DNA of 64,000 nt from Acidobacteriota bacterium. Lineage in GTDB: Bacteria > Acidobacteriota > Vicinamibacteria > Vicinamibacterales > JAKQTR01. Both the position numbers and the translations under genes were made by a program. The DNA is taken from positions 1 through 64,000 of the forward strand of contig JAPKZQ010000004.1 in the NCBI GenBank assembly GCA_026393675.1, given 5' to 3'. The notes under the pieces are model-generated. The model saw only the letters and a list, made by a program, of their open reading frames with translations. It searched no databases and was not told where the DNA came from. This document shows positions 14,072 to 47,074 of the stretch, piece by piece. Position 1 is the first letter of the stretch. Each line of letters opens with the position of its first letter.

Positions 14072-14202
14072 ACGATCTGACGCGGGCCTCAGGCGCCGAT
14101 GATGGGTCGCCCTGGCGCACGATTCCTCTCTAGGGAAGATACGGCATCGCCGGGGGAACGGTTCCCGGCGGTCTCGGGGCAGTGTAGCACGGCGGCGCGG
14201 CC

Positions 14203-15609
14203 TCAGGCCTGGGCCCGCTCCTTGATTTTCTCGACCTCGATTTTGTGCTTCTTCACGAGGTGCCACATGCTGCGCTCGGTGATGCCCAGCAGGCGGGCGG
14301 CCTGCGCCTGCACGCCGCCCGTGCGTGAGAGCGCCTCGATGACAAACGCGCGCTCGAGCTGCGCGATCTTCTCGTCGAGCGACACGATGCCCGGCGACTC
14401 CCACTGCTGTGATGCCACGCCGGCCACCAGGCCGACGCCGGCAGGGCGAATCGGTTGAGGCAGGCTGGTCAGCGTGACGACCTCACCGTCGGTGACGACC
14501 GCAGCGCGCTCGATGGCGTTCTTCAGCTCGCGGATGTTGCCCGGCCAGTCGTACGCCATCAACGCCGCCATCGCGTCCGACGACGCCCGCCTGATGGTCC
14601 GACCGAGTCGCTGGTTGGCTTCGGCCAGGAAGTGGTCGACCAGTCCCGGAATCTCCTCGCGGCGTTCGCGGAGCGGCGGCACGTTGATCGTGATGACGTT
14701 CAGCCGGAAGTACAGGTCGTCGCGGAACGTACCCGCGCGGACGTTCCGCAACAGGTCCTTGTTGGTGGAGGCAATGATGCGGACATCCACCTTGATCGTC
14801 GATGTGCCGCCGACGCGTTCCACCTGGCGGCTCTGGAGCACGCGGAGGATCTTGGCCTGTGTCGCCAGCGTCATGTCGGCGATCTCGTCGAGCAGCAGCG
14901 TGCCGCCGTCGGACAGTTCGAACTTACCGGGTTTGCGGGCCTGCGCGCCGGTAAACGCGCCGCGCTCGTACCCGAACAACTCGGATTCGAGGAGCGTCTC
15001 GGGAATGGCCGCGCAGTTGAGACGCACGAACGGCCGGTGTTTCCGCAACGACCGTTCGTGGATCGCTTCGGCCACCAGTTCCTTGCCGACGCCGCTCTCG
15101 CCGAGGATGAGCACCGTCGAGTCGGTCGGGGCGGCCCGGTCGATCAGGTGCATCACTTCGTTCATCGCCCGCGAGGCGGCCGTGGCCCAGCCGTGTCCCG
15201 GCAGGGTCGCCAGTTCCTCGCGCAACCGTTCGATCTCGAAGTGCAGTTTCCGTTTCTCGAGGGCGCGTCGGATGACGATTTCCATCTCCTCGAGGCGGAA
15301 GGGTTTCGTGAAGTAGTCGTACGCGCCGCGCCGGATCGCGTCGATCGCGTCATCGCGCGTGCCGTGGGCGGTCATGATGATGATCGGCACCCGGGGATCG
15401 ATCTTCAGGATCTCCTCGACCGCCTCGAGTCCGCTCATGCCTGGCAGGCGGATGTCCAGCAGGATCAGGTCGGCCGAGTCGGCCTTGAGCGCCTGGAGTC
15501 CCTCTTCAGCGGTTGTCTTCAACGTCACGGCGTAGCCCTGCCGGTGCAACGCCTCGTTGAGGAAGAACTGCATCTGCTCGTCGTCATCGATGACTAGGAC
15601 ATGGAACAT
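14203..15609 (-). CDS. NtrC-family sigma-54-dependent response regulator (PilR-like by position)
   Basis: The 468-aa regulator has a receiver domain (DDDEQMQ; phosphoacceptor in [13 protein letters not shown]), an AAA+ domain with GESGVGKE, the sigma-54 loop in ERGAFTGAQ and LLLDEIADM, and a Fis-type helix-turn-helix ([13 protein letters not shown]). It lies downstream of the prepilin and PilM-remnant genes on the same strand. The prepilin has a near-consensus sigma-54 promoter, so a PilR-like role in activating that promoter is a reasonable inference. No partner kinase gene is adjacent. The start ATG at 15609 gives an intact receiver. Confidence 0.94.
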
Positions 15610-15677: not shown

Positions 15678-16060
15678 TCATCGGCCGACTCCAGCGGGCA
15701 CGGGGCCTCTGAGTGTGACGCGGCGGCGTTCCCCGGTTGAGGTCACGAAGGTCACCGCATCGCGATCAATCTGGACCACCTTGAAGTCACCCACGTTCGC
15801 GCGGAACTCGTCGACCGGTTCCGGCAGGTGGGCGACATCGATCCCTTCCAGCACATCGAGCGTCTCGACCTCGACGTTCAGCTCGTGCATCAACGGTCCG
15901 GTGAGCGAACGCAGGTCCGGCATGTCGCCGGAGACCAGTACGTGACTGACGTCCACTTGACGATTCTGCTTCGAGATCGGCCAAACAGACCGGTCTTCTC
16001 ACGGACCTCGACGATCCGGCACACGTGTGGAAGCAATTCGATGCCAACGCGGTTCGCCAT
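15678..16060 (-). pseudogene. frameshifted, internally deleted PilM-like remnant
   Basis: The frame opening at ATG 16060 encodes a PilM/GspL-like N-terminus (MANRVGIELLPHVCRIVEV...) that loses homology after about 30 codons near 15980. A second frame then resumes with a PilM-like C-terminal motif, VLVSGDMPDLRSLTGPL...VEVETLDVLEGI, through 15800. After VDEFR it switches to a short segment (VGDFKVVQIDRDAVTF) that looks like the end of a PilP/GspC-like protein, ending at 15678. The simplest reading is two deletions joining parts of pilM and a downstream pilus gene. Family assignments are by eye, so the exact junctions are approximate. Confidence 0.6.
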
Positions 16061-16149
16061 GTGTCACTGGAGTTTTCGGCTCGACAGGGGCGAAGACATA
16101 GGCTTCCGCCTCGGAAAAACTCGGGCGGAACTGTGCAACGGCGAAAGTG

Positions 16150-16785
16150 TTACTGGAGCCGGACGCCGATGTCGTCGTTGACAAGGGCGGCACTCAGGAT
16201 GGACTGCCCAAATGGCGTCTCGATGATGCCGTTGTGACCAGCCGACAGGACCCACACGGCGGCCTTCACCCCACCGCCATTGCCCGTCGCCGACGTATCG
16301 ATCAAGTCGATGTTGACGATGTACCGGTTGCCCCACGGATCCGCGCTGATTCCCGACGACAAGTAGGGTCCGTTCCATCCGAACTGGGACGTCGGGGCCC
16401 TCCGGCTATAACCGGGGACGTCGGTCATCAACTGCTCTGACAGCAAGCCGGCGACTCCTGTCGTCCACAGGCTTGGCTGGTCCTCTAGCGCGACGTTGCC
16501 GGGACTGACGAGGAGCTGCACGCGATTCTGCGGAAGCCCGGGGTCGCCTTTCTGAGCCAGCTTCCAGGACGGGAAAAATCCGTTGTCCCGGTAGAACTGG
16601 ACGATGGCACTCGCGATGGTCTGGCAATCGCTTCGAGCCCGGGCCGACCGCGAGTCGTTGATGAAGTTGCCGATGGAAGGCATGAGCACCAGGGCGAGCG
16701 TCACGATCACCCCGAGCACCACCGTCAGCTCCATCAGTGTGAAGCCGTGATGGCTTCTAGCGGTGATTGCTTGTCGGCCGAACAT
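16150..16785 (-). CDS. type IV prepilin / GspG-like pseudopilin
   Basis: This 211-aa protein has a class III prepilin signal: a short basic leader ending in Gly14, then FTLMELTVVLGVI with Glu5 of the mature form. A hydrophobic helix follows, then a globular domain with DPWGNRY and LSAGHNGIIETP, hallmarks of GspG-type pseudopilins. A prepilin peptidase would cleave after Gly14. The gene looks intact, unlike its neighbours, and is preceded by a strong sigma-54 promoter (16961-16977) and a leader of about 165 nt. It should be a subunit of a type IV pilus or type II-like pseudopilus, but no assembly ATPase or platform protein is found in this window. Confidence 0.9.
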   Translation of the reverse strand: MFGRQAITARSHHGFTLMELTVVLGVIVTLALVLMPSIGNFINDSRSARARSDCQTIASAIVQFYRDNGFFPSWKLAQKGDPGLPQNRVQLLVSPGNVALEDQPSLWTTGVAGLLSEQLMTDVPGYSRRAPTSQFGWNGPYLSSGISADPWGNRYIVNIDLIDTSATGNGGGVKAAVWVLSAGHNGIIETPFGQSILSAALVNDDIGVRLQ

Positions 16786-16960
16786 CGGCGACCCTCACGG
16801 TTCTGGCGCAAAACAACGGGAGTTACAAAACACTTGCCGGTCGTTTAGTCCCGGGAAACCCTGGTTCGGGGAACGCTATGAACCCGTCTCCCGGCCGGCC
16901 GCTCGTCTGACCCACGAGCCAGCCGTGCGCTCCCCAGTCCCAAAGAATAGATTCTCCCTT
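16786..16960 (-). other. long structured 5' leader of the prepilin gene
   Basis: About 165 nt separate the predicted sigma-54 start from the prepilin ATG. It contains a CTCGT/ACGAG stem and several GC-rich complementary blocks. I looked for a GEMM c-di-GMP riboswitch, which often precedes pilin genes, and did not find its conserved motifs. Confidence 0.35.
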
Positions 16961-16977
16961 AGCAACCTCCGTGCCCA
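16961..16977 (-). promoter_or_regulatory. sigma-54 promoter of the prepilin gene
   Basis: The minus strand reads TGGGCACGGAGGTTGCT, matching TTGGCACG-N4-TTGCW at all but one informative position with exact -24/-12 spacing. This suits PilR-type control of pilin. The remaining stretch 16978-17285 is comparatively AT-rich and gene-free; it holds a TGTCTC/GAGACA hairpin near 17215-17231. Confidence 0.75.
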
Positions 16978-17285
16978 CTGTGAAATAGCACGAAGATACA
17001 GAAAAAACAACGCGTTCTTGGGAAGAAATGGCGATCCCACACATCGGCGACCGGCGGTGTCCTACGTTTTGTGGTGACACGAAACGAGTCTGATCGGTGA
17101 GAGGTGAGAACGCCAGCTATAGCATCGCGGCCGAAAAATACCCGTAACCCATAGATTACGCTACGTTTTTCTGCCTGGCAGACCGCCGGACTCCTGAAGC
17201 CACATAAGACGTTGTCTCGTTTTGAGACATGCCGCATCAATGTGGGGCGAGCCAGAGACCGAGGGTTGTAACAAGGGTGGCGCGT

Positions 17286-17978
17286 CTACTTGAGCAGCTT
17301 CGAGCGGAGCAGTTGGATGCGGTTGCGCACGTCGGTGGCAAGCGTGGCGGTGTCGGCGCCACCGAACGAGAGGAACTGTTCGTAGTGATCGATGGCGCGG
17401 GAGATTTCGCCGCTCTCTTCGAGCACGAGCGCGAGGTTGTAGTGGGCGTTGGCGGCTGTCGACGACCCTGCGGCGTTTCGCGTGATGCCAGGCGCCGTGG
17501 TCGCTGGAGATTCCGCTGGTGATGGTGGTGTGCGCGACGTCGTGACCAGGAGCGCCGGTGCGGCTGCGGGAGGCGCGGGTTTCGACGGCGCGGGAGCTCC
17601 ACATCCGGCGGCCTGCTGCGGCTCGGCGGGAGGCTTGGTTGGGTTAGCAGGCGACGTCACGGGACGCTGGTTGGGTGGTGTGACGGCGCGGCGCGCTGCC
17701 GTCTGCCGAGGGCCGAACAGAAAAGACATGGGACCGGCCGGCACGAGACGGTTGTCCGCCGCCACCTGCCACACCAGCGCTGCGGTCACCATGACCAGCA
17801 CCACGCCGATCGCGATACGAAGCGCAGGTGCCATTCCAGCCGACTCCGGCGCCTGTGTGGGGTAGCCAAGGGAGGCCAGGACGTGATCGTCCGTCATGCC
17901 TGGCGATCTGGGTGGGAGCCCCTCGGGTTTCGGCGTCGCCCCGTGGTGTTGACGCAAGACGTCAAGCATGCGGCTCAT
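17286..17978 (-). CDS. MshN-like TPR protein, probably shortened
   Basis: The 230-aa product begins MSRMLDVLRQHHG, a start typical of pilus/secretion-locus accessory proteins of the MshN/GspB kind. It has one TM helix (IAIGVVLVMVTAALVWQV, about residues 55-72), a long Pro/Ala-rich linker and a single TPR unit at the C-terminus (NAHYNLALVLEESGEISRAIDHYEQFL). Family members usually carry several TPRs, so a deletion between the linker and the last TPR is possible; the frame is kept. The ATG at 17978 lies 4 bp after the upstream ExeA-like fragment, so they are co-transcribed. Expression and function are uncertain given its damaged neighbours. Confidence 0.6.
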   Translation of the reverse strand: MSRMLDVLRQHHGATPKPEGLPPRSPGMTDDHVLASLGYPTQAPESAGMAPALRIAIGVVLVMVTAALVWQVAADNRLVPAGPMSFLFGPRQTAARRAVTPPNQRPVTSPANPTKPPAEPQQAAGCGAPAPSKPAPPAAAPALLVTTSRTPPSPAESPATTAPGITRNAAGSSTAANAHYNLALVLEESGEISRAIDHYEQFLSFGGADTATLATDVRNRIQLLRSKLLK

Positions 17979-17982
17979 GGCA

Positions 17983-19091
17983 TTACGCGCCAGACACGGC
18001 GCTCGTGCCAAACCCGGCGACGAGCGGACGGCGGCGGCGGAGCCAGGAGAATCGGGGTTTCTCCACCTGCCGGAGGTCAAGCGATTTGGTCGCCCGGATG
18101 ACGAGGTCGTGCGCAACCTTGTTGGCCTTCGTCGAGAAGGCGCCAAGCAGACTGCGGTCGCAAATCAGATTGATCAGACGCGGAATGCCGCCCGAGGACT
18201 GGAAAACCGCCCGCAGGGCCTTCGGCGTGAAGCTCACGGTCGTCGCCCCGCCGGCCACGTACAGGCGGTGATAGATGTAGGCGGCCGTCTCGTCCTCGGT
18301 GAGCGGTTTCAGTTCGTAGCGAATCGACACGCGCTGATCCAGTTGCCTCAACTCCGGCGCACGCTGCTCTTCGTACAGACGCTGCTGGTCCGCCGCGCTC
18401 ATGGCCGCGACGTCGCCGGGCGTCACGACCGTTGGCGTCAGCAGGATGACCAGGTCGACTTTCTTCTTCGTCCGATCGTCACGGCGGAAGAGTCCGCCAA
18501 TCGGCGGCATATCACCCAGCACCGGCACCTTGGTCTTCTCGCCGGTGGTCCGTTCCTGCATCACAGCCGGCTCGTTGTTCATCGCCATCACGCGCGGACT
18601 GGCCATGACATTGACCCGCCCCTGACTGGCAAATGCGTTGAGCAGGCCCTTGAAGTTCTTGATGTTCACGCCCATCGTAAACGCGCTCTGGCTGGCGGTG
18701 GGCGCGAGTCGCTGCGTGAGCGTGACGGAGTTGGCTGCGCTGCGCAGCACGGCTGACCAGTCGATGCCCGCCGAGAACTGCTCGTTCATCTCGACTTCGA
18801 TGACTTTGGCCTGAATGTGGACCTGGCGCAGGATCCGGGACTCGACCACATCAAGGTCGTTCGCAATCTTGTCGAGCCTGTCCAAATAGTCCTTGATCTG
18901 CAGCAGGCCGGCTTTCCGATCGAGGTTGAGACGGCCCTCGGGCGACATCAACATCGCGATGCCTTTCTCGATCTCGGCGAAGGTGTCGAGTCCTGCGCGG
19001 CAACTCCTGTCGACAACGCGCCCGAGGTCGACAGCACAAGTGCGGCCATCAGCCCCGCATTGACCGCCGCTGTGCGTGCTGTGGACTTCAT
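17983..19091 (-). pseudogene. secretin signal peptide + secretin C-terminus fused to ExeA-like ATPase C-terminus
   Basis: ATG 19091 opens a secretin-like signal peptide (MKSTARTAAVNAG...GVAAQD), which goes out of frame near 18985. In the next frame the secretin resumes late in the protein (LDTFAEIEKGI...EGRLNLDRKAGLLQIKDYLDRL) and carries the conserved secretin core (RVNVMASPRVMAMNNEPAVM; LVILLTPTVVTPGD). At about 18360 it continues without a stop into the C-terminal third of an ExeA/MshM ATPase (LRQLDQRVSIRYELKPLTEDETAAYI...GGIPRLINLICDRSLLGAF), ending at 17983. Walker A and B of ExeA and the secretin N-domains are missing. Two deletions, one out of frame and one fusing two adjacent genes, explain this. 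An internal start at 18954 could still make a 323-aa chimera. Confidence 0.75.
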
Positions 19092-19172
19092 AGGTATTCC
19101 CCGAAAGCGGACGCGTGATAGACGCTCCGCTCTCTGGGCTGTTTCTCGGCTTATCTTGTTGGCAACATTAGC

Positions 19173-19197
19173 GCTGCGGGCACGAACTGCCCGCAGC
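19173..19197. repeat. perfect 10-bp hairpin
   Basis: GCTGCGGGCA (19173-19182) pairs exactly with TGCCCGCAGC (19188-19197) around CGAAC. It lies between the membrane-protein gene ending at 19345 and the secretin remnant starting at 19091, both on minus. It may slow or end the upstream transcript, but there is no T-tract. The rest of 19092-19344 shows no gene. Confidence 0.6.
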
Positions 19198-19344
19198 TTG
19201 TCAGGCCGGCACCCGCGGCTACTTGCGGGCGCGAAGCAGGCGGACGACCCCCCGAGCGACCATCCTCGACGCGAGGTCGTGGCCTTCACCTGAACGTCAT
19301 AGACTGGCTGGTGAGGTCCCGTTTCTCGAAGCTTCCGGCCCCGG

Positions 19345-22165: not shown

Positions 22166-23227
22166 ATGATCGATGGATTCCTCGTTGCGGCCACCGTCTT
22201 TTCCCTCAGCATGGCCACCATCATGGCCGTGATCACCTGGCGGGTGATTCGGCTCGATCGACGGCAGACCGCCGCGCTGGTCGCGCGCCAACCTGAAGAG
22301 CCGACCGACTCGCGCAACCCTCCGGCGTGGCCGCCTGTTAGAGGCGACCTCAGGAATCGGTACCAGGGCATCCCCAGGCAAGCCCTGGCGAATTCCGAGG
22401 CAGATGCCGCCGAACCCCTGTGGGCCGATCTGGTGATCGAGCGCACCACTGCCCCAGCGCAGGCTGTTGCAATGGTGCGGCGCGAGGCAGCCGAAACGCC
22501 CGCTTTGTTCACGCCCCCTGTCTCGGCCAGTGATGGAAACCGGCGATTTGCGATAGCCATCGGAGTTGGCGCGTTGGTGGTCACGTCAGCCATCGGCTCG
22601 GCGCTTGTCTTCAGCGGGCGGCCCGCTGGATTGGCCTTCGTCTCGCCGGCGGCGGCCAAAGTGGCATCGCCCCTCGAGTTGGTATCGCTGGACTCTGCGC
22701 GAGACGGAGATCGCGTCACCATCCGCGGCCTGGTGAGGAATCCGGCGGCTGGAACCCGGGTGGAGCATCTCCAGGCCGTGATCTTTCTGTTCGATCGGCG
22801 CGGCATGTACCTCGGCACGTCACACGCCGCCGTGGTGCAAGGTGTCCTGCCACCCGGGTCGGAATCGTCGTTTGAGGTTCCGCTCGCGGCGGGCCTGCGG
22901 GTCAGCCGATATCGCGTGAGCTTCCGCGTGGCCACAGCGCCGGTGCCCCATATTGATCGCCGGCCGGTGCCGATCCCGGCGCCAGCCGGTCAACGTATGG
23001 CCGCCACGGAGCAACCCGCCTTCGCCCTCGGGACGCCGGAGCTGCCGCTGGCAGCGAAGGCGCCTTCGGCTTCGGCGAGGCCAGGCCAAAGCCCGCTCAC
23101 ACGAGCGGGCACCGGCCGGCGCGCCACCCTGGCCATCTCACCAGGTGCGGTGCAGTACCCTTCGACTCGGTTGAGTTGCGCTTCAGGTGGCCCTGTCCAA
23201 TGCCCTGAAACAGGGAACCAACATTGA
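22166..23227 (+). CDS. two-TM protein of unknown function with C-terminal beta domain
   Basis: The frame is open from 21515, but a membrane protein clearly starts at ATG 22166 (GGAG 11 nt upstream): MIDGFLVAATVFSLSMATIMAVITW is the first TM helix. A cytoplasmic linker follows, then a second TM helix (AIAIGVGALVVTSAIGSALVF, about 132-152). The next beta-rich region (LVSLDSARDGDRVTIRGLVRNPAAGTRVEHLQAVIFLFD) resembles FxLYD-type domains. The tail is Pro/Ala-rich. 353 aa. The intergenic space 21969-22165 contains a CACACC/GGTGTG hairpin (22048-22065). Confidence 0.65.
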   Translation: MIDGFLVAATVFSLSMATIMAVITWRVIRLDRRQTAALVARQPEEPTDSRNPPAWPPVRGDLRNRYQGIPRQALANSEADAAEPLWADLVIERTTAPAQAVAMVRREAAETPALFTPPVSASDGNRRFAIAIGVGALVVTSAIGSALVFSGRPAGLAFVSPAAAKVASPLELVSLDSARDGDRVTIRGLVRNPAAGTRVEHLQAVIFLFDRRGMYLGTSHAAVVQGVLPPGSESSFEVPLAAGLRVSRYRVSFRVATAPVPHIDRRPVPIPAPAGQRMAATEQPAFALGTPELPLAAKAPSASARPGQSPLTRAGTGRRATLAISPGAVQYPSTRLSCASGGPVQCPETGNQH

Positions 23228-23270
23228 GCTGCCTTTCTCTGCTGAAGTGAGCTCAGGGTTGAGGAGACAC

Positions 23271-24380
23271 ATGATAGGTGTGCGACGTTGGCGAGCAGAC
23301 CGCGCCCCTCGCGTGCTCGTGGTCGTCGCGCTCGTCGCGGCCTTCGGCGCAACCCTCCCGGGTCAGCAGGACCAGAGCCCACGCTATCGGTTCAAGACGG
23401 GTGTCGAGCTGGTCAACGTCACGGCCACAGTCACCGACCGCGCGGGACGCTTCGTCGGCAACCTCACGCGCGACGACTTCGGCGTGTACGAAGACGGCGT
23501 CCTGCAGTCGATTGACTACTTCTCCCGCGAACGGGTGCCCGTCAGCCTCGGCATCGTGCTCGACACGTCGGGCAGCATGGTTGGAGACAAGATTCGCGCG
23601 GCTCAGCGGGCACTCGACCGGTTTCTCGTTGAGCTGCTCGGACCCGACGACGAAGTCTTCCTGTACCGCATCGGCGACGAGCCGCTGCTGGTCCAGGGAT
23701 GGACCACGGATCGCGACGCGCTACGCCGCCAGCTGGGCCGCATTACGCCGACGGGAGAGACCGCGCTGTACGACACGGTTGCCCGCGCCGTCGCGCTCGC
23801 GCAGACGGGCACTCATCGGAAGAAGGCCCTCGTGATCATCTCCGATGGCAATGACAACGCGTCGACGATTGGCGTGCGCCAGGTACGCCAGCTGATCCTG
23901 CAATCTGAATTGCTCGTGTACGCCATCGGCCTCGATGGGAACGCGGGGATCATGCGGATTGCCCAACAGCGCGGACCCCAGCGACCACGGCCGCCGGTTC
24001 GCATCCCCTGGCCGCCGACCCTCCCTCGTGGCGGCGGCTTTCCACCACAGAATCCGCCGATCCCTGCGATCCCACCGCCTTCCGGAGGATTGCCGCACAG
24101 CAGCGAGGAAGGCGTTAACGCGACTGCCCTTCGCGCCATCACCGACGACAGCGGTGGCCGAACCGAGATCATCCGCTCGAGCCTCGATCTCGATCCGGCG
24201 ACCGCCGGAATCGCCGACGAACTGAGCCGGCAGTACTCATTGGCCTACTCGCCGACATCCCCAAAGGACGGTCGGTGGCACAACATCCGGGTCGTCGTGA
24301 AGAACCGCGACTGCCTCGTGCGCGCGCGACGAGGTTACGTGGCGGGGGTGGTCGGAAAAACGGAGCGTTCTGTCTCCTGA
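23271..24380 (+). CDS. VWFA-related Acidobacterial-type secreted protein
   Basis: This 369-aa protein has an N-terminal export signal (VLVVVALVAAFGATLPGQQ) and a conserved lead-in (FKTGVELVNVTATVTDRAGRFV...LTRDDFGVYEDG). A von Willebrand factor A domain follows, with MIDAS motif LDTSGSM and downstream DDEVFL and TGETALYD. A Pro-rich insert (PPRGGGFPPQNPPIPAIPPP) precedes the last strand region. It matches the family known from Acidobacteriota genomes. ATG 23271 is chosen because of GAGGAGA just upstream. Probably periplasmic, adhesion- or protein-interaction-related; exact role unknown. Confidence 0.88.
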   Translation: MIGVRRWRADRAPRVLVVVALVAAFGATLPGQQDQSPRYRFKTGVELVNVTATVTDRAGRFVGNLTRDDFGVYEDGVLQSIDYFSRERVPVSLGIVLDTSGSMVGDKIRAAQRALDRFLVELLGPDDEVFLYRIGDEPLLVQGWTTDRDALRRQLGRITPTGETALYDTVARAVALAQTGTHRKKALVIISDGNDNASTIGVRQVRQLILQSELLVYAIGLDGNAGIMRIAQQRGPQRPRPPVRIPWPPTLPRGGGFPPQNPPIPAIPPPSGGLPHSSEEGVNATALRAITDDSGGRTEIIRSSLDLDPATAGIADELSRQYSLAYSPTSPKDGRWHNIRVVVKNRDCLVRARRGYVAGVVGKTERSVS

Positions 24381-24394: not shown

Positions 24395-25126
24395 ATGTCT
24401 CTGCTTCTGATTGCCATCAGCCTCGCCATCCTGGGCAGCGTGGGCGGGATCGTGCTCGGAGCGGTCCTGCTCGTCTTCCGCGAGTCGGTGCGAACCAAGC
24501 TGGTTCCGTGGCTCGTCAGTTACGCGGTCGGGACGCTGCTCGGCGTGGCCCTGCTCGATATACTGCCCGAAGCCCTGCAGTCACTGAAGCCCACGCCGGT
24601 GTTTGGGGCGCTGCTTGGCGGCATCATGGCCTTTTTCATTCTCGAGAAACTCGTGTTGTGGCATCACTGCCACGACGATCAGTGCGAATCCCACAAGGCG
24701 GCGGCGCCGCTCATCCTGATCGGACACAGCGTCCACAACCTCATTGACGGCACGATGATCGCCGCCGCGACGTATGTCTCGATTCCCCTTGGCGTGACGA
24801 CGGCGCTGGCGGTCGCCGCCCACGAGATTCCCCAGGAAGTGGGCGACTTCGCGATTCTCCTGCACGCGGGCTATTCGAGGATGAAAGCGCTCTGGCTCAA
24901 CGTGCTGTCGGGTATGTCGGCGGCTGGCGGCGTGCTGCTGGCCTTCGTCGCCATCGATCGGTCACGGGATATCGTGCCGTATTTTCTGCCTGTGGCGGCC
25001 GCGAGCTTCCTCTATATCGCCATGTCAGACCTGATCCCGAGCCTGCACCGCAACCCGCTTGAAGGCGGCGCCATTCGTCAGGTCCTCCTGGTCGGCGCGG
25101 GCATCCTGACGGTTACGCTGCTCTGA
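24395..25126 (+). CDS. ZIP family divalent metal transporter
   Basis: This 243-aa inner-membrane protein has about eight TM helices. It contains the metal-site motifs of ZIP transporters: HSVHNLIDG in TM4 and HEIPQEVGDFAILLHAG in TM5, and a short His-rich loop (LWHHCHDDQCESH) before TM4, consistent with zinc or iron uptake. The frame is open upstream, but the start is taken at ATG 24395, where the first TM helix (MSLLLIAISLAILGSVGGI) begins, 14 nt after a TAGAAT box. Confidence 0.93.
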   Translation: MSLLLIAISLAILGSVGGIVLGAVLLVFRESVRTKLVPWLVSYAVGTLLGVALLDILPEALQSLKPTPVFGALLGGIMAFFILEKLVLWHHCHDDQCESHKAAAPLILIGHSVHNLIDGTMIAAATYVSIPLGVTTALAVAAHEIPQEVGDFAILLHAGYSRMKALWLNVLSGMSAAGGVLLAFVAIDRSRDIVPYFLPVAAASFLYIAMSDLIPSLHRNPLEGGAIRQVLLVGAGILTVTLL

Positions 25127-25141
25127 GGCGCCCGCGCGCCG

Positions 25142-25263
25142 GATTCGTCTCGGCCGCCTTCGTGCTTCTTGCTTCTGACTCTTCTCTTTCCCCTACACTC
25201 TCATTCTTGCTTCTTGGTTCTTGCTCCTTGCTACTTGTCCACTTGTCCACTTGTCCCCTTGCG
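25142..25263. repeat. pyrimidine-rich low-complexity tract with ACTTGTCC tandem copies
   Basis: After the ZIP gene a CT-rich tract carries repeated CTTG/CTTCTTG units and three to four copies of ACTTGTCC (about 25231-25262). No gene is supported in 25127-25453. A sigma-54-like site lies further along at 25331. Confidence 0.6.
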
Positions 25264-25330
25264 AGGTCGGCCAGCCCGGCTGCCTTGTCGCGGACTGGTC
25301 ACAAACTCGGCGGTTATTCGTTGGCACACA

Positions 25331-25347
25331 CTGGCACGCAGTTTGAA
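25331..25347 (+). promoter_or_regulatory. sigma-54-like promoter upstream of the BON gene
   Basis: CTGGCACGCAGTTTGAA has a perfect -24 element (TGGCACG) with correct spacing to TTTGA, but the -12 GC is GA. Transcription would begin near 25359, about 95 nt before the BON gene. The weak -12 makes this tentative. Confidence 0.35.
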
Positions 25348-25453
25348 GTTCAAGGGCGTGGGCAGAGTTCCGATCCGAATGTCCCGGCACGCCGGCGCCG
25401 CTGGGTTCCCCCACATTTTCGGAGATCTCTCGCCCGACGAAGGAGTACGACCC

Positions 25454-26011
25454 ATGACACGGTTACGCCACATCGCCACCGGTCTGATGCTCGTCGCGCT
25501 GATCGCAGCACCGATCCTCGCGCAGGACGAGCGGAAAGACCTTCAAATATTCAAGGACGCCTCGGACGCGGTCCTCAGGTACCCGCGATTCACGATCTTC
25601 GACGACGTGAGCGCGTCGATCGACCAGGGAGTGGTCACCCTGGCCGGCAAGGTCACGATGCCGTTCAAGCGTACCGACATCGAAGACCGGGTCGCCCGGG
25701 TCGCCGGCGTCAAACGCGTGGACAACTCGATTACGGTGCTTCCGGTCTCGATCGCGGACGACGACCTGCGGTACTTCATCGCGCGCGCCATCTACGGCAA
25801 TTCCGCGTTCTGGCAATACGCGACGATGACCAATCCGCCCATTCACGTCATTGTCGAACGCGGGCGGGTGACGCTGACCGGCGTGGTCAGCAGCAATGTG
25901 GAGCGGATGCTGGCGCGATCGCTGGCCGCCGGATTTGGCGAGTTCTCGATCACCAGCGAGCTGAAGACTGACGCCGAAGTCAGGAGCGCACTGGAGAAGA
26001 TTGGGATGTAA
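25454..26011 (+). CDS. periplasmic BON-domain protein
   Basis: The 185-aa protein has a signal peptide (MTRLRHIATGLMLVALIAAPILAQ) and two BON domains (about 33-98 and 105-170), with the glycine-centred motifs GVVTLAGKVTMP and GRVTLTGVVSSN. BON domains bind phospholipid or stabilise the envelope, as in OsmY. AAGGAG precedes the ATG at 25454 by 9 nt. Its 3' end overlaps the convergent acetyltransferase gene by 32 bp. An envelope-stress role is inferred only from the domain. Confidence 0.88.
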   Translation: MTRLRHIATGLMLVALIAAPILAQDERKDLQIFKDASDAVLRYPRFTIFDDVSASIDQGVVTLAGKVTMPFKRTDIEDRVARVAGVKRVDNSITVLPVSIADDDLRYFIARAIYGNSAFWQYATMTNPPIHVIVERGRVTLTGVVSSNVERMLARSLAAGFGEFSITSELKTDAEVRSALEKIGM

Positions 26012-26609
26012 GGACCTTCTCGAGGCGAATCTCGTCCCTCACTTCAATGCCCGCGAACCCTGTGTTGTCGGGCGGCGGATTGTGAGGGACGAGCGCTCCC
26101 ACGATCACCTCGGTGATCTGGTAGCCGCGCCGCTGGTAGAAATACAACGACGGCAGGTTGTCGTTGGTGGTGCAGAAGACGACCTTCGGCAGATCGAGGC
26201 GTCGTGCGAGCAACTCGGCCTCCGCGACGAGATACCCTCCCACGCCGGACCGCTGCCAGGTTGCCTCGGTGGCCAGCGCGACAATCTGCAGGCCATCGCC
26301 CCGCAACCGGTACGCCAGCGCGCCCGCGAGTTCGTTCTTCATGACGGCGACCAGGGCCGGAGCATCGTCAAGCGCCAGCAGGCTGCCAAACGCCACCATC
26401 TTTGAGCGGCCGAAGTCGCGGCGGAACAAGTCCATGACGGCAACGCGGTCGTCGTCTGCCCCCTCGCGCACCAATACCGGAGGAAGGTCAAGGTGCGCGC
26501 GACACTGGCACACGACCTGGAGCCGGGCATCCTGCCAGTCGACGGACTTCCCGCACCGCCCGCATCGAAGCACCGTGGGCTGGGCCCCAAACGTGAAGTG
26601 ACTCGCCAT
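25980..26609 (-). CDS. GNAT N-acetyltransferase with N-terminal zinc ribbon
   Basis: The 209-aa protein starts with a short Cys-rich ribbon (LRCGRCGKSVDW...VVCQCRAH, about 14-40), followed by a GNAT fold. The acetyl-CoA-binding motif is seen as TWQRSGVGGYLVAEAE, and strand/helix segments NLPSLYFYQRRGY are typical of the C-terminal part. The ATG at 26609 is preferred (GGAGGAAGG upstream) over the longer open frame. The ribbon-GNAT arrangement suggests a protein or nucleic-acid substrate, but nothing in the context names it. It is convergent with the BON gene. Confidence 0.82.
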   Translation of the reverse strand: MASHFTFGAQPTVLRCGRCGKSVDWQDARLQVVCQCRAHLDLPPVLVREGADDDRVAVMDLFRRDFGRSKMVAFGSLLALDDAPALVAVMKNELAGALAYRLRGDGLQIVALATEATWQRSGVGGYLVAEAELLARRLDLPKVVFCTTNDNLPSLYFYQRRGYQITEVIVGALVPHNPPPDNTGFAGIEVRDEIRLEKVLTSQSSPVRS

Positions 26610-26624
26610 CGGTCCTTCCTCCTT

Positions 26625-26795
26625 CGCCCTCGACATTCTCGAGGGCTTCGGCGGACTAAAGTCCCTGCGCCCTGGACAGTCTCGAAGGGCTTCGGCGGAC
26701 TAAGCCGCCTTCGCACGGCGACTCTCGAGGTGCTTCGGCGTGCCAAGCCGCCTGCGGCTACGGCGTGCCAGGCCGGCTTCGCGCGGCAACAGTGT
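26625..26795. repeat. cluster of REP-like elements (GGCTTCGGCGGACTAA family)
   Basis: At least four degenerate copies of a unit built on CTTCGGCGGACTAA / CTTCGGCGTGCCAAGCCGCC follow each other, several with CTCGA-N-TCGAGG inverted ends. Related fragments occur at 27613-27655 and 21303-21330. It is an intergenic repeat family. No gene lies in 26610-26863 apart from the -10-like TATCAT near 26819 for the next gene. Confidence 0.7.
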
Positions 26796-26863
26796 AACGA
26801 ATCGGCGTGGGTTCGGGTCTATCATACTGATCGGCCCTTTTACACAGGTTTGGAGGAGTGGTC

Positions 26864-27613
26864 ATGTCGATGAAGCGACGAGCGGTGTGGGCCGTGGCGG
26901 CGATAGCCGTCGCGGGATTGCTGGTTGAAACCGGGGCGTACGCGCAGACGGCGCCGCCAGCGCAGCAGCCGCCAAAGGCTCAGGCGCCTGCCGCCAAGAA
27001 GCCGGCTGCCGACCCGACGACCCAGGCACAGCCGACTCCCCCGCCCGCGCCGCAGCCGCCGATGGGACGTGGACCAGGCATGGGGCGCGGACAGATGATG
27101 GGCCGTGGCCTGGGGCTGGGGCGTGGACAGATGATGGGCCGTGGCATGGGAATGGGTCCGATGCAACAGGGCCGGAAGTTTGGGCGGCAGCAGATGGCGC
27201 GCCGGTCCCTCATGGGCGCGGCAGGCATGGCCGGCCTGATGCGCCGCCTCAATCTCACGCAGGCACAGAAAGACCAGTTGAAGGGCTTCCGTGACCAGCG
27301 CCAGAAGGACATGACCGCCACCCGCGACAAGTTGCAGCCGGCGCGACAGAAACTCCGCGACGCGATGCGCGCGCAGATCCCGGACGAAGCCGCGGTCCGG
27401 GCGGCAGGCCTGGCGATGGCGACGGCACAGGCAGACCAAATGGCGCTACAGGCCAGGTCTCGCGCTCAGCTCATGAAAGTGCTGACGCCGGAGCAACAAC
27501 AACAGTTCCGCCAGTTCCAACAGCGGATGACCGGGGGGCGCTCGAGACAGATGCGAATGCAGCCGGGCGGCATGATGGACCGACAGGGCAAGGGCTGGCG
27601 TCGGCGGGACTAG
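26864..27613 (+). CDS. Spy/CpxP-like periplasmic protein with Gly-Arg-Met repeats
   Basis: This 249-aa exported protein has a signal peptide (about 1-28, ending GAYAQ), then a Pro/Ala-rich region. A low-complexity block of GRGxMMGRG repeats follows (about 65-105); its DNA contains a 36-bp tandem duplication at about 27085-27156. The helical Spy-type domain carries both LTxxQ-like motifs (LNLTQAQKDQ, LTPEQQQQF). Such proteins act as ATP-independent chaperones or metal sensors. It ends next to, and convergent with, a histidine kinase gene, and a second Spy-like gene lies beyond the regulator. GGAGGAG supports the start at 26864. Confidence 0.85.
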   Translation: MSMKRRAVWAVAAIAVAGLLVETGAYAQTAPPAQQPPKAQAPAAKKPAADPTTQAQPTPPPAPQPPMGRGPGMGRGQMMGRGLGLGRGQMMGRGMGMGPMQQGRKFGRQQMARRSLMGAAGMAGLMRRLNLTQAQKDQLKGFRDQRQKDMTATRDKLQPARQKLRDAMRAQIPDEAAVRAAGLAMATAQADQMALQARSRAQLMKVLTPEQQQQFRQFQQRMTGGRSRQMRMQPGGMMDRQGKGWRRRD

Positions 27614-27655
27614 CCGCCTTCGCCCTGAGCTTGTCGAGGGGCTACGGCGTGTTAA
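27613..27655. repeat. REP-like element at convergent gene ends
   Basis: GCCGCCTTCGCCCTGAGC followed by TTGTCGAGGGGCTACGGCG belongs to the same repeat family as 26625-26795 and overlaps the last codons of the histidine kinase gene. Confidence 0.55.
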
Positions 27656-29171
27656 AGCCGCCGTCGCCCGTCTCGCGTGGCAACACGATGTCGAAGACGG
27701 TCTCCAGTCCTTCCTGACTTCGAACGGTGACGCGGCCTCCGTGGCGCTCGACGATGGCCTTGACGATCGAGAGCCCGAGGCCGCTTCCTCGTTGATCGCC
27801 TGCTCGCGACGTGTCGGTTTTGTAGAACCGGTCAAACACGTGACCGATGTGCTCGGTGGGGATCCCTTCTCCGGTATCGCGAACAGACAACACCGCACTA
27901 TCCGGGCGCGCACACGCACCGAATTCAATCCTGCCGCCGGATCCGGTGTGGCGTAACGCGTTGGCCGCCAGATTCTGGAGCGCCTGCTCCATGCGCACAG
28001 GATCGACGTGCACGGTCATCGACGGTGGATCGATGTGGCTGGTCAGCGTGGCGTTCTTCAGCCCGGCGTCGCGTTCGTGCCGTTCAATCACCCGACGGAA
28101 CAACTCTTCGACCAGGATCTCCGTGCGAACCAGTGCCCCGCCTCCTGCCTCGAGCCGGGCCAGGTCCATCAAGTCGCCAATGAGCCGTTCGAGTCTGGCC
28201 GTCTCCTCGCGGACGATACCGAGGTAGCGTTGGCGCGTGTCGGCATTGAGCTCCAACTCGGCCATCGCGAGTGTCTCGAGGTATCCGCGTATCGCCGTCA
28301 GCGGCGTCATCAACTCATGGGACACGTCGGCCAGGAGTTGACGGCGATCGTGATCAGCCGCACGAAGGGCCTCCGCCCGGGCACTCAAGTCGGCCGCCAT
28401 CCGGTTGAACGCCCGCGCTACAGCCGCAATCTCGTCGCCGCCTGTTTCCGGCGCACGCGCCGTCGCATCGCCCGTGCCGAGGCGCCGCGCGGCATCCTCG
28501 AGCTGGCCCAGTCGTCTGTGCGCAGGTCTGAAGATGAACACGCTCGCGAACATCGTGCCGATGATCACGAGCAGCGCCGCGATCGCCATCCCCACCGGCG
28601 CAACCTGGCGAATCACGACAGCCAGCGGCGCGTTTGGGGGAACCAACACCATCGCACGCACGCGATCGTGCACGACCACCGGGAAGAACGCGGCCGGTCG
28701 CCTTGGGCCCCGTCCCCCGCCCGGTTCAAGCCCCGGACCCGGCCCGAGTCCCGGTCCGAATCCTGGCCCGCCGCCGCGACCCGGCCCGAGCCCGGCACCC
28801 GGGCCCAGTGCGCGCCGCGTCAGGCGACGCAGCGCGGCCTCGCGCAGAAGGGGCGGCACATCTGCGTCCGGATGGGAGAGGAACATGCGGCCGTCGGGCA
28901 ACACCAGCGCAACAGGCCGCCAGTGGGAGCCATAGTGCTCTCGCAGATAGGCCTCGACCTCGAGGTTCTCGTCCGCGGACCATGCCGTGCCCAGATCAGA
29001 GGCGACCAGCGCAGCCAGATCGAGTGTCGAGCGGCCGGCGACCGTGTCGGATGAACGCGCCAGAAACCAGACCGTCACGGCTCCCTGCACCACCATCAGG
29101 GTGGCGAGGAACGCGACAAATCCGATCGCGATGCGCCAGTACAGGCTGCGAAACCAGGCTCGTTCACTCAT
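27642..29171 (-). CDS. sensor histidine kinase (CpxA/BaeS-like)
   Basis: The 509-aa protein has an N-terminal TM helix (about 12-35), a periplasmic sensor domain, a second TM helix (about 190-215), a HAMP domain, HisKA with LLADVSHELMTPLTAIRG and HATPase_c with DTGEGI and GSGLGLSIVKAI. The sensor domain contains a Gly-Pro repeat block (GPGAGLGPGRGGGPGFGPG). The C-terminal end runs into a repeat element. It overlaps the upstream response-regulator gene by 8 bp. Spy-like proteins on both sides suggest an envelope-stress or metal-stress system like CpxAR-CpxP. Confidence 0.93.
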   Translation of the reverse strand: MSERAWFRSLYWRIAIGFVAFLATLMVVQGAVTVWFLARSSDTVAGRSTLDLAALVASDLGTAWSADENLEVEAYLREHYGSHWRPVALVLPDGRMFLSHPDADVPPLLREAALRRLTRRALGPGAGLGPGRGGGPGFGPGLGPGPGLEPGGGRGPRRPAAFFPVVVHDRVRAMVLVPPNAPLAVVIRQVAPVGMAIAALLVIIGTMFASVFIFRPAHRRLGQLEDAARRLGTGDATARAPETGGDEIAAVARAFNRMAADLSARAEALRAADHDRRQLLADVSHELMTPLTAIRGYLETLAMAELELNADTRQRYLGIVREETARLERLIGDLMDLARLEAGGGALVRTEILVEELFRRVIERHERDAGLKNATLTSHIDPPSMTVHVDPVRMEQALQNLAANALRHTGSGGRIEFGACARPDSAVLSVRDTGEGIPTEHIGHVFDRFYKTDTSRAGDQRGSGLGLSIVKAIVERHGGRVTVRSQEGLETVFDIVLPRETGDGGFNTP

Positions 29172-35586: not shown

Positions 35587-35709
35587 ATGGGTGCCGGGCT
35601 GACCCCGGCTCCTCTCGCCTCGCCCGCCCCCGTCGCCGTTCTTGAGACGAGACGGCTTGTCGGCCCGACACGCTGGCTACCCGAACAAGACGACTGCCTG
35701 TTCGCCTAA
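35587..35709 (+). CDS. possible 40-aa leader peptide upstream of argF
   Basis: An ORF from ATG 35587 encodes 40 residues with an Arg-Arg pair (AGA CGG, codons 22-23) and a third Arg (codon 29). Its TAA stop (35707-35709) lies inside the first strand of the switch structure described next. AAGG lies 8 nt upstream as a weak Shine-Dalgarno, and a TAGAAT box (35579-35584) is so close that transcripts from it would start inside the ORF. Translation is therefore uncertain; the case rests on the position of the stop and the Arg codons before an arginine-pathway gene. Confidence 0.3.
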   Translation: MGAGLTPAPLASPAPVAVLETRRLVGPTRWLPEQDDCLFA

Positions 35710-35833
35710 GTCCTTCGATTCACAAGTTCGGAAACGAACTTATTCCCTCAGGACTTAGTGCTGAGCGAGCATCTTGACGGATCGCCTCGCGAGAATACGT
35801 AGCCGTCATCGCGAGTCGAAGCACTAAGGAGAC
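35705..35833 (+). promoter_or_regulatory. candidate RNA switch in the argF leader
   Basis: Segment A CTAAGTCCT (35706-35714) pairs with B AGGACTTAG (35750-35758). B's overlapping part CTTAGTGCT (35754-35762) pairs with C AGCACTAAG (35820-35828). Both helices are 9 perfect base pairs and share bases 35754-35758, so only one can form. C includes the first bases of the argF Shine-Dalgarno AAGGAG (35826-35831). An AAGTTCG-GAAA-CGAACTT hairpin (35724-35741) sits inside A:B, and TGACGG/CCGTCA sits inside B:C. This is the layout of an attenuator or riboswitch; the ligand or trigger is unknown. Confidence 0.55.
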
Positions 35834-41223: not shown

Positions 41224-41266
41224 GCGCAGCCGAAGGGCTGAAGCCAGTCCTGAAGAAGCGGAAGTC
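41191..41266 (+). repeat. imperfect direct repeat of the cDPGS-like gene's 3' end
   Basis: The 29 bp at 41191-41219 (CTGAAGCCATTCCTGAAGAG...) recur at 41238-41266 with two mismatches, so the coding tail LKPFLKRRKS is repeated after the stop as LKPVLKKRKS. Between them lies a CCTGAGCGCAGCCGAAGGG dispersed-repeat fragment. Confidence 0.85.
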
Positions 41267-41352
41267 ATCTGGCGGCGCGGGGCCGGGGCCGGGAAGCTTG
41301 TAGAGCTTGGTCTCGCCGCGAGTTGAAAGCGCGGTAAGATAGGGCACTTCCC

Positions 41353-41496
41353 ATGTCCTTGACAGCAGGCACCGGGCTGGGCCCGTACGAAGTCGTCGGC
41401 GTCATCGGCGCCGGTGGCCCCGCCTTCGTTCGCGGTGGCGTCGACGCGAGCGAACTACGGCGAGGTCTCGCCGAAGCCAACGAGAGGACTCGATGA
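41353..41496 (+). pseudogene. remnant of a Ser/Thr protein kinase N-terminus
   Basis: ATG 41353 opens a 47-codon frame whose first 22 residues (MSLTAGTGLGPYEVVGVIGAGG) are the start of a PknB-type kinase up to the glycine-rich loop. After the loop the homology stops (PAFVRGGVDASELRRG...). Its TGA overlaps the ATG of the intact kinase (ATGA, 41493-41496). It looks like a deleted tandem kinase copy that now acts as a translated leader. A TAAGAT -10-like box lies 18 nt upstream (41335-41340). Confidence 0.65.
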
Positions 41497-44150
41497 TAAT
41501 CGGGGCGACGGTTGGCCCGTATCAAGTCCTGGAGAAGCTTGGCGAAGGCGGAATGGGTGAGGTGTATCGGGCGCGCGACACCAAGCTCGGCCGTGAAGTC
41601 GCCTTGAAGGTTCTGCCCGCGGCGCTGGCTGGCGACCCGGACCGGCTGGCCCGGTTTCGCCGCGAAGCGCAGGTGCTCGCCGCGCTGAATCACCCCAATA
41701 TCGCCCAGCTTTACGGATTCGAGGATACCGGCGCCACCCACGCGCTCGTGATGGAACTGGTCGAGGGCGCGACGCTGGCTGACCGCATCGCCCAGGGTCC
41801 GGTCCCGGTCGACGAGGCCCTGGCGATCGCGCGTCAGATTGCCGAGGCGCTCGAGGCCGCGCACGAACACGGCATCGTCCACCGCGATCTGAAGCCGGCC
41901 AACATCAAGGTCAGGGAGGATGGCACCGTGAAGGTGCTGGACTTCGGTTTGGCCAGGGCGGTCGATCCAATCTCGACGGCGAGCGGCGACGCGATGAATT
42001 CGCCAACGCTCACCGCGCACGCCACCCAGTTGGGCATGATTCTCGGGACCGCGGCGTACATGGCCCCGGAGCAGGCGAAGGGAAAGCCGGTGGACCGGCG
42101 CGCGGACATCTGGGCATTTGGCGTGGTGCTCTTCGAGATGCTGACCGGCCAGCGCGCGTTCAAGGGAGAGGATGTCTCCGATGTGCTCGCGGCCGTGCTG
42201 CGGCAGGAGATCGATTGGAGCGCGCTGCCGGCCGGCACGCCGCCCAGGATCCGTCGCGTGCTGGAACGCTGCCTGGAGCGCGATCCGAAGCGTCGTCTAC
42301 GCGACATCGGCGACGTCTGGATCGGCCTGGATGCACCGGCCGACGCGCCGCCTGCGCCCGCGCCCGCGCTCACTGCCGGGCGCCAACCGCATGGGATTGC
42401 GCGATGGCTCCCCTGGATCGCTGCCGTCGTCATCGCCGCAGCCAGCGTGACCTGGTCGATTGTCCGTACGCCGCCGCCTCAACCGCAACTGGTGACGCGG
42501 TCAGTGTCGCACCTGAAGGATTTCTCGGCGTTCGTCAACATCTCACGCGATGGCACGAAGCTGGTCTATACCACCGCCAGCGGTGGTTCCTCGTTTCTCA
42601 CGTTGCGGATGCTCGATCAGTTCGAGGGTAAGCCGATCCCGGGAACCGAAGGGGGCTTGTTCCCGATCTTCTCCCCGGACGGTCAGTGGATCGCGTACAG
42701 CACCGCGAGCCAGCCTTCGAAGATCCGAAAGATTCCACTTACTGGCGGCACGTCCATTGCTCTCTGCGACGGCGGCGTCGGAAATGGAGCAACCTGGGGC
42801 GAGGACGACACGATCGTATTCTCCGGCGGCAAGGGACTCATGCGCGTCGCCGCTTCCGCGGGCACGCCGCAACCGCTCACGACGGTCGATGCCGCAAAGG
42901 GCGAGGCCGCGCACATCCGTCCGCAGTTTCTGCCAGGCGGCACGCGACTCCTGTTCACAATCATGCCCATCAAGTCGGCCGATGGCGAGCAGTTCGCCGT
43001 GCTCGATCTGGTCAAAGGCGGATACCGCGCCGTTGCGAAGGGCGGCGTCAATGGACAGTACACGGCGAGCGGCCACCTGACGTACCTGCGGGGCTCGACG
43101 CTGTTCGCGATGCCATTCGACCTCGGCCGGCTCGCGGTGGCAGGTGGAGAAGTGCCCGTCATCGAGTTGGTCTCCACGACGGGTTCGACCGGCACGGGCG
43201 ACTACTCCTTCTCCAACGCGGGCCTGCTGGCATACGTCGCGGACGAGTCGGCGAATCGCGGGACCACCCTTGCCTGGGCAGACCGCAAAGGCAAGACGAG
43301 CATCCTGCCTGGAGAGGCGCAGAAGACATGGGGGACCGGGCGGTTGTCGCCGAACGGACGACTTGTCGCAAACAGATTCAGCGACGACAAAGGCGGTGCG
43401 GATATGTGGGTGCTGGACGTCCAGCGCGGCATCCCGACCCGTCTCACCTTTGGTGGCACCCATGACTTCCCGGTCTGGACGCCGGACAGCCGAACCGTCG
43501 TCTTCACCGGCACGCAGGACGGAAAACAAGGTCTCTACTCGGTCCCCGCCGACGCCAGCGGCAAGCCGGCGCTCATGCTCGCAACCGAGTCTCCCGCGGT
43601 CCCGACCTCCTTCACGCCTGATGGCAAGACGCTGGCGTACTATCAGGCGGGCCCGGACAAGCGAGCTCGGATTCTGCTGGCGCGAGTCGGCGCAATCGGC
43701 CAGCCCGTCCAGCCGCGGCCGCTGCACGACGCGTCAGGCGCCGAGTACAACGCGCAGATCTCGCCCGATGGCCGGTGGGTCGCGTTCGTGTCGACAGAGT
43801 CCGGGACCAGCGAGATTTACATACAGCCGTTCCCGGGGCCCGGACCCAAGCTCCGGATCTCAACCGGAGGGGGCAACGATCCACGGTGGGCTCAGAACGG
43901 CCGGGAGCTGTTCTATCGCACCGGCGTCCCGGCGCAGACGTTCATGGTGGTCGAACTGCTCGCTGATTCAGCGCTGCCGGTGGGCCAGCCGCGCGAGTTG
44001 TTTCAGCTGACTGCCGGAACGACGTGGGATGTCACGCCGGACCGTGATCGGTTTCTCGTGGAACTCACAGTCGGCGGGCGCGGATCAGCACTCGCATTGG
44101 TGACCAACTGGTTTGAGGAACTGCGCCGCCGCGCACCCGCCAAGAAGTGA
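41493..44150 (+). CDS. Ser/Thr protein kinase with C-terminal TolB-like beta-propeller
   Basis: This 885-aa membrane kinase has a cytoplasmic Hanks-type domain (about 8-275): GEGGMGEVYRARD, the VALKVLP lysine, HRDLKPANIKV, DFGLARA, MAPEQAKG and RADIWAFG. A Pro/Ala linker, one TM helix (about 308-328, ARWLPWIAAVVIAAASVTWSIV) and an extracytoplasmic propeller of TolB/WD40-like repeats follow (FSPDGQWIAYST, SPNGRLVANRFSDD, SPDGRWVAFVS). This architecture is common in Acidobacteriota, and signals are unknown. The start overlaps the remnant ORF by ATGA. It ends 6 bp from the convergent TonB-receptor gene. Confidence 0.95.
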   Translation: MIIGATVGPYQVLEKLGEGGMGEVYRARDTKLGREVALKVLPAALAGDPDRLARFRREAQVLAALNHPNIAQLYGFEDTGATHALVMELVEGATLADRIAQGPVPVDEALAIARQIAEALEAAHEHGIVHRDLKPANIKVREDGTVKVLDFGLARAVDPISTASGDAMNSPTLTAHATQLGMILGTAAYMAPEQAKGKPVDRRADIWAFGVVLFEMLTGQRAFKGEDVSDVLAAVLRQEIDWSALPAGTPPRIRRVLERCLERDPKRRLRDIGDVWIGLDAPADAPPAPAPALTAGRQPHGIARWLPWIAAVVIAAASVTWSIVRTPPPQPQLVTRSVSHLKDFSAFVNISRDGTKLVYTTASGGSSFLTLRMLDQFEGKPIPGTEGGLFPIFSPDGQWIAYSTASQPSKIRKIPLTGGTSIALCDGGVGNGATWGEDDTIVFSGGKGLMRVAASAGTPQPLTTVDAAKGEAAHIRPQFLPGGTRLLFTIMPIKSADGEQFAVLDLVKGGYRAVAKGGVNGQYTASGHLTYLRGSTLFAMPFDLGRLAVAGGEVPVIELVSTTGSTGTGDYSFSNAGLLAYVADESANRGTTLAWADRKGKTSILPGEAQKTWGTGRLSPNGRLVANRFSDDKGGADMWVLDVQRGIPTRLTFGGTHDFPVWTPDSRTVVFTGTQDGKQGLYSVPADASGKPALMLATESPAVPTSFTPDGKTLAYYQAGPDKRARILLARVGAIGQPVQPRPLHDASGAEYNAQISPDGRWVAFVSTESGTSEIYIQPFPGPGPKLRISTGGGNDPRWAQNGRELFYRTGVPAQTFMVVELLADSALPVGQPRELFQLTAGTTWDVTPDRDRFLVELTVGGRGSALALVTNWFEELRRRAPAKK

Positions 44151-44156
44151 GCCCAT

Positions 44157-46895: not shown

Positions 46896-47074
46896 GTTCG
46901 ATCCTGAAATGGCAAAAGGAGAGCGAACCCGCCAGGGCGGGCTCGAAACCGGGGGGCAGCCACGTGATGCTAACGGACTGGCGCGACTACTACCAGCGGT
47001 CGTCGATGGACGGCATGCCAAAAACCCGCACGGGCGCAATTGATTGCGCCCCCACGGTGGACGTGTGGTGGTCC

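Follow-up and report, generated by a model that had tools for sequence, protein, structure and literature searches.

The window analysed here consists of the first 64,000 nucleotides of a 206 kb contig (G000:C4) from a Vicinamibacterales-type member of the Acidobacteriota, whose genome (G000) is a 3.25 Mb draft in 46 contigs, 98.6% complete, and the only one representing its species; no second genome of that species was found among the GTDB genome contigs scanned. Between positions 15678 and 19091 the minus strand carries a row of pilus gene remnants, and by profile matches the ORFs correspond to parts of an MshL-like secretin, an ExeA-like ATPase, a TPR protein and a prepilin. In the direction of transcription there are a signal-peptide remnant of the secretin (18993..19091, with a blastn segment at 18992-19199 to the relative G001), middle and C-terminal remnants of the secretin (18355..18993), a C-terminal remnant of the ExeA/MshM-like ATPase without the Walker region (17983..18367; residues 172-304 of a 304-aa G001 protein), a complete ORF of 229 aa for the TPR protein in the MshN position (17286..17975), a complete ORF of 211 aa for a GspG-like prepilin (16150..16785; 71% identity to G001 along the full length, T2SSG and N_methyl matches), an N-terminal PilM remnant (15972..16060; residues 1-33 of the G001 protein), a middle remnant of the PilM/PilN fusion (15797..15971; residues 251-314 of 516 in G001) and a C-terminal remnant of a PilP-like protein in the MshK position (15678..15794; residues 133-170 of the G001 protein). 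The secretin remnants match TIGR02519 MshL (111.8 bits, cut-off 250.2) and Pfam Secretin partially, and the two small PilM/PilP ORFs, which have no family match on their own, were identified by comparison with G001. Next to them lies an intact and conserved gene for an NtrC-type response regulator (14203..15609, minus strand; 92% identity to the G001 protein) with REC, Sigma54_activat and HTH_8 domains. The prepilin ORF, the shortened TPR ORF and the regulator gene are what is left whole.

For comparison we used G001, the sole sampled genome of the same genus, and G002, G003 and G004 from the same family. In the same neighbourhood as in the window, contig C30 of G001 carries a complete MSHA-like type IV pilus operon of 14-15 kb, encoding in order of transcription a secretin (661 aa frame), an ExeA-like ATPase (304 aa), a TPR protein (430 aa), two prepilins (252 and 214 aa), the PilM/PilN fusion (516 aa), a PilO-like (253 aa) and a PilP-like protein (170 aa), the NtrC-type regulator (468 aa), an MshEN-domain ATPase (about 547 aa), a PilC-like platform protein (406 aa) and a prepilin (252 aa), after which an ABC transporter ATPase follows. 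The names PilO and PilP are given by position in G001, as neither protein had a match in family searches. The gene order is identical in G002:C14 and G003:C136, and in G004 pieces of the operon are scattered over several contigs. Since G002 and G003 share the order, we take the intact state to be ancestral and the deletions to be derived in G000.

Judged by gene content and profile matches, the ancestral system appears to be MSHA-like. As in the msh loci of Vibrio cholerae, the G001 locus holds together an MshL-like secretin, an MshM-like ATPase, a TPR protein in the place of MshN, equivalents of PilM, PilN, PilO and PilP, an MshEN-domain ATPase, a PilC-like platform and prepilins. The mandatory genes of the MSH model are mshE, mshG, mshL, mshM and mshA (PMC6668835), and putative counterparts of all five are present in G001, that of mshA being among the prepilins. 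It differs from the MSH loci in that the secretin (204 against 250 bits) and the ExeA-like ATPase (284 against 324) score below the curated cut-offs and in that an NtrC-type regulator is held inside the ancestral-type locus; in the window, moreover, the locus is broken. In the literature searched we came across nothing relevant about MSHA in Acidobacteria, decay by multiple deletions or Vicinamibacterales pili.

Aligned by blastn, the window and G001:C30 are collinear with sharp breaks, and there are at least eight deletions in the operon, seen as eight net losses of 297-3647 bp with a total of 9266 bp. At junction K (18992..18993) a loss of 760 bp, which is not a multiple of three, separates the reading frame of the secretin signal peptide from that of the remainder; at junction I (18558-18563) 297 bp are missing in frame inside the secretin; and at junction H (18355..18367) a loss of 611 bp fuses the secretin C-terminus to the ExeA-like ATPase from residue ~172 onward. 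The TPR gene has lost 603 bp in frame at junction G (within 17453-17659, a diffuse break because the linker there does not align between the two genomes), which leaves a single TPR where the G001 protein has several. Junction E (16796..16888; 913 bp) lacks the second prepilin gene that is present in G001, G002 and G003, junction C (15971..15972; 661 bp) is a frameshifting loss inside the PilM/PilN gene, and at junction B (15794..15797; 1774 bp) all of PilO has disappeared along with the ends of PilM/N and PilP. Finally, junction A (14191..14198; 3647 bp, from G001:C30 32518 to 36172) has removed the MshE-like ATPase, the PilC-like platform and a prepilin gene. Whole genes were thus removed at junctions A and E, and apart from junction B the others have their breaks within genes. 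Essential components are disrupted or absent in G000: the ATPase, the platform, PilO and two prepilins are gone, and the secretin, ExeA, PilM/N and PilP are truncated. A difference of 161 bp at 16107/16128 was not counted as a further deletion, as it overlaps a dispersed repeat of ~96 bp present in G001 and may be an insertion there.

The preliminary description, made from the window alone, had proposed a locus collapsed by several internal deletions, and the collapse proved more extensive than it assumed. The four junctions it had placed near 15810, 15985, 18360 and 18985 lie within about 16 bp of B, C, H and K, and junctions A, E, G and I come in addition. Its readings of the out-of-frame signal peptide, of the secretin running into an ExeA without Walker motifs, of the single TPR and of a PilM N-terminus joined to a PilM C-terminal piece and a different tail all hold, the tail being the PilP C-terminus. 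It was also right that genes for the assembly ATPase and the platform are missing, but not that they were lost from between the fragments: in the relatives they sit downstream of the NtrC-type gene, and the loss falls outside 15678-19091.

It could be argued that the organism has an intact operon and that the assembler linked distant pieces, since the assembly is a draft in 46 contigs and the fragments are nearly undecayed, as expected were the deletions not real. We consider such an artefact unlikely. The 206 kb contig contains zero Ns, and no MshE or PilC orthologue of this operon is found elsewhere in the 98.6%-complete assembly. With G001 as a stand-in for the ancestor, the six testable junctions share 3-6 bp, with a mean of 4.5 as compared to 4.18 for random site pairs (P 0.26), and a de Bruijn assembler requires an overlap far longer than this for joining sequences. 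Furthermore the losses are gathered on one dispensable operon. We sampled 331.7 kb of G000 in six pairs of stretches syntenic with G001. Of the 15 net losses of 250 bp or more found there, 8 lie in the operon, which accounts for about 5% of the length in G001 (P about 1.1e-7), and the remaining 327 kb has seven. Losses are expected to gather in dispensable DNA, so this clustering shows dispensability and not a special mechanism. General shrinkage is not indicated in the sampled stretches, where DNA present in G000 and absent from G001 is commoner than the reverse.

The junction comparison also bears on how the deletions arose. Short direct repeats, for which the preliminary description had suggested looking, do not exceed chance expectation at the junction ends, and Ku-dependent end joining was rejected as Ku was not found in any of the five family genomes, with a positive control. 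By exclusion, the deletions likely arose by illegitimate recombination or alternative end joining.

Several frames are kept (the 297 and 603 bp losses and the PilM-PilP join), the pilin and TPR ORFs are complete and the fragments are free of stops, which could mean that the shortened genes have been retained and still work as a reduced functional set, made up of the pilin, the mini TPR protein and the fused secretin/ATPase ORF. This we find highly improbable: frames are broken at the 661 and 760 bp junctions, two or three in-frame outcomes are about what a one-in-three chance gives, and the assembly ATPase, the platform, PilO and the whole secretin of the system are all gone. Nor does the fused layout, whose conservation elsewhere would have spoken for function, occur in any other genome searched, neither in the GTDB genome contigs scanned nor in a family-wide DNA search of five genomes. 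The NtrC-type gene has 11 nonsynonymous and 40 synonymous changes on the G000 branch; this purifying selection suggests that the regulator probably serves other targets.

In the 675 retained codons of the broken genes we found zero stop codons, against about 5.06 predicted under neutrality along the entire G000 branch (P 0.006), and zero frameshifting indels, the indels in the aligned coding pieces being multiples of three. The loss of the operon is therefore recent, with the deletions late on the G000 branch and the fragments nearly free of point decay. On this branch the ratio of nonsynonymous to synonymous changes is 42:53 in the fragments compared with 35:134 in the neighbouring genes (P 7.6e-5), and on the G001 branch it is 32:54 compared with 52:134 (P 0.16). 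Nonsynonymous changes in the fragments are thus raised relative to the neighbours in G000, as relaxed selection might produce, but taken alone the increase over the G001 branch in the same codons does not reach significance (P 0.37); the pattern is consistent with recent loss. These counts give an estimate of 13% for the neutral part of the G000 branch (bootstrap range below zero to 41%), under a simple substitution model with assumed transition and GC-to-AT weights.

Collectively, the intact loci in G001, G002 and G003, the derived deletions, their clustering on one operon and the nearly undecayed fragments support the recent reductive loss that had been suggested before, and we put the probability at roughly 85% that the window holds the remains of an MSHA-like type IV pilus operon that was intact in the ancestor shared with G001, decayed recently and was cut down late on the G000 branch. 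Synteny shows that this ancestor had the full operon from the secretin through the final prepilin. After the split the G000 lineage presumably ceased to need the pilus, and deletions of 0.3-3.6 kb, probably by illegitimate recombination without long repeats, took out about 9.3 kb late on the branch, leaving the type IVa pilus, type II secretion-like and Tad-like systems in place. A surface-attachment habit that was given up, or escape from a pilus-using phage, are possible causes.

What speaks against recent decay of the ordinary kind is that eight large deletions ahead of any small frameshift are unusual. Kuo and Ochman (2010, PMC2916853) count premature stops and short indels among the commonest mutations of bacterial pseudogenes, and regard large deletions as probably the principal way in which genes are removed completely. 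As in their account, unneeded genes are disrupted and then removed, but in the G000 operon large internal deletions come before stops and small frameshifts. A rapid series or single burst of clustered, kilobase-scale, repeat-free deletions before point decay, in a genome without detectable Ku, would be a mode of gene loss unlike the usual one, which begins with small indels and stops; we regard this as doubtful. Our finding is ordinary pseudogene decay seen unusually early, a good example and not a new kind of system. Its value is that the loss of a whole surface machine can be dated to the late part of a single branch, with the locus still intact in relatives of the genus and family, and that large deletions before point decay could help show how such bacteria shed operons. 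Fused ORFs such as the 323-aa secretin/ATPase chimera call for caution against annotation as real genes.

Judged by Pfam matches and neighbourhood, G000 retains PilB, PilT and PilC from a type IVa pilus on C2, PilM and a secretin resembling PilQ on C45, a set like those of type II secretion on C43 and a Tad-like one on C13. It lacks a second ATPase in which an MshEN domain is combined with a receiver domain; G001 has this protein as an 869-aa frame, and ATPase frames of similar size occur in G002-G004. A 102 bp in-frame zinc-ribbon remnant of such an MshEN-T2SSE-receiver ATPase lies at G000:C5:72235-72336, with net losses of 1302 bp on one side and 1784 bp on the other, and is a second G000 locus with decay of the same type as in the pilus operon. 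A 4.0 kb minor-pilin region of G001:C28 is absent from G000:C5; we do not claim loss of the function, as G000 has a minor-pilin cluster on C2. The clusters are placed differently, at G000:C2:18471-23641 near the pilB region and at G001:C28:178006-180394 on another contig.

Elsewhere in the window, 22270-24374, 25126-27676 and 41237-47070 exceed the corresponding stretches of G001 by 2.0, 2.5 and 3.3 kb. A dispersed repeat of ~120 bp is found at 35706-35825, at C4 95250, 116988 and 202080 and on other contigs (11 matches in the G000 sample, 2 in that of G001), and a second one of ~130-170 bp at G000:C4 84098-84265, 91951-92109 and 107763-107897 (6 and 3 matches, respectively).
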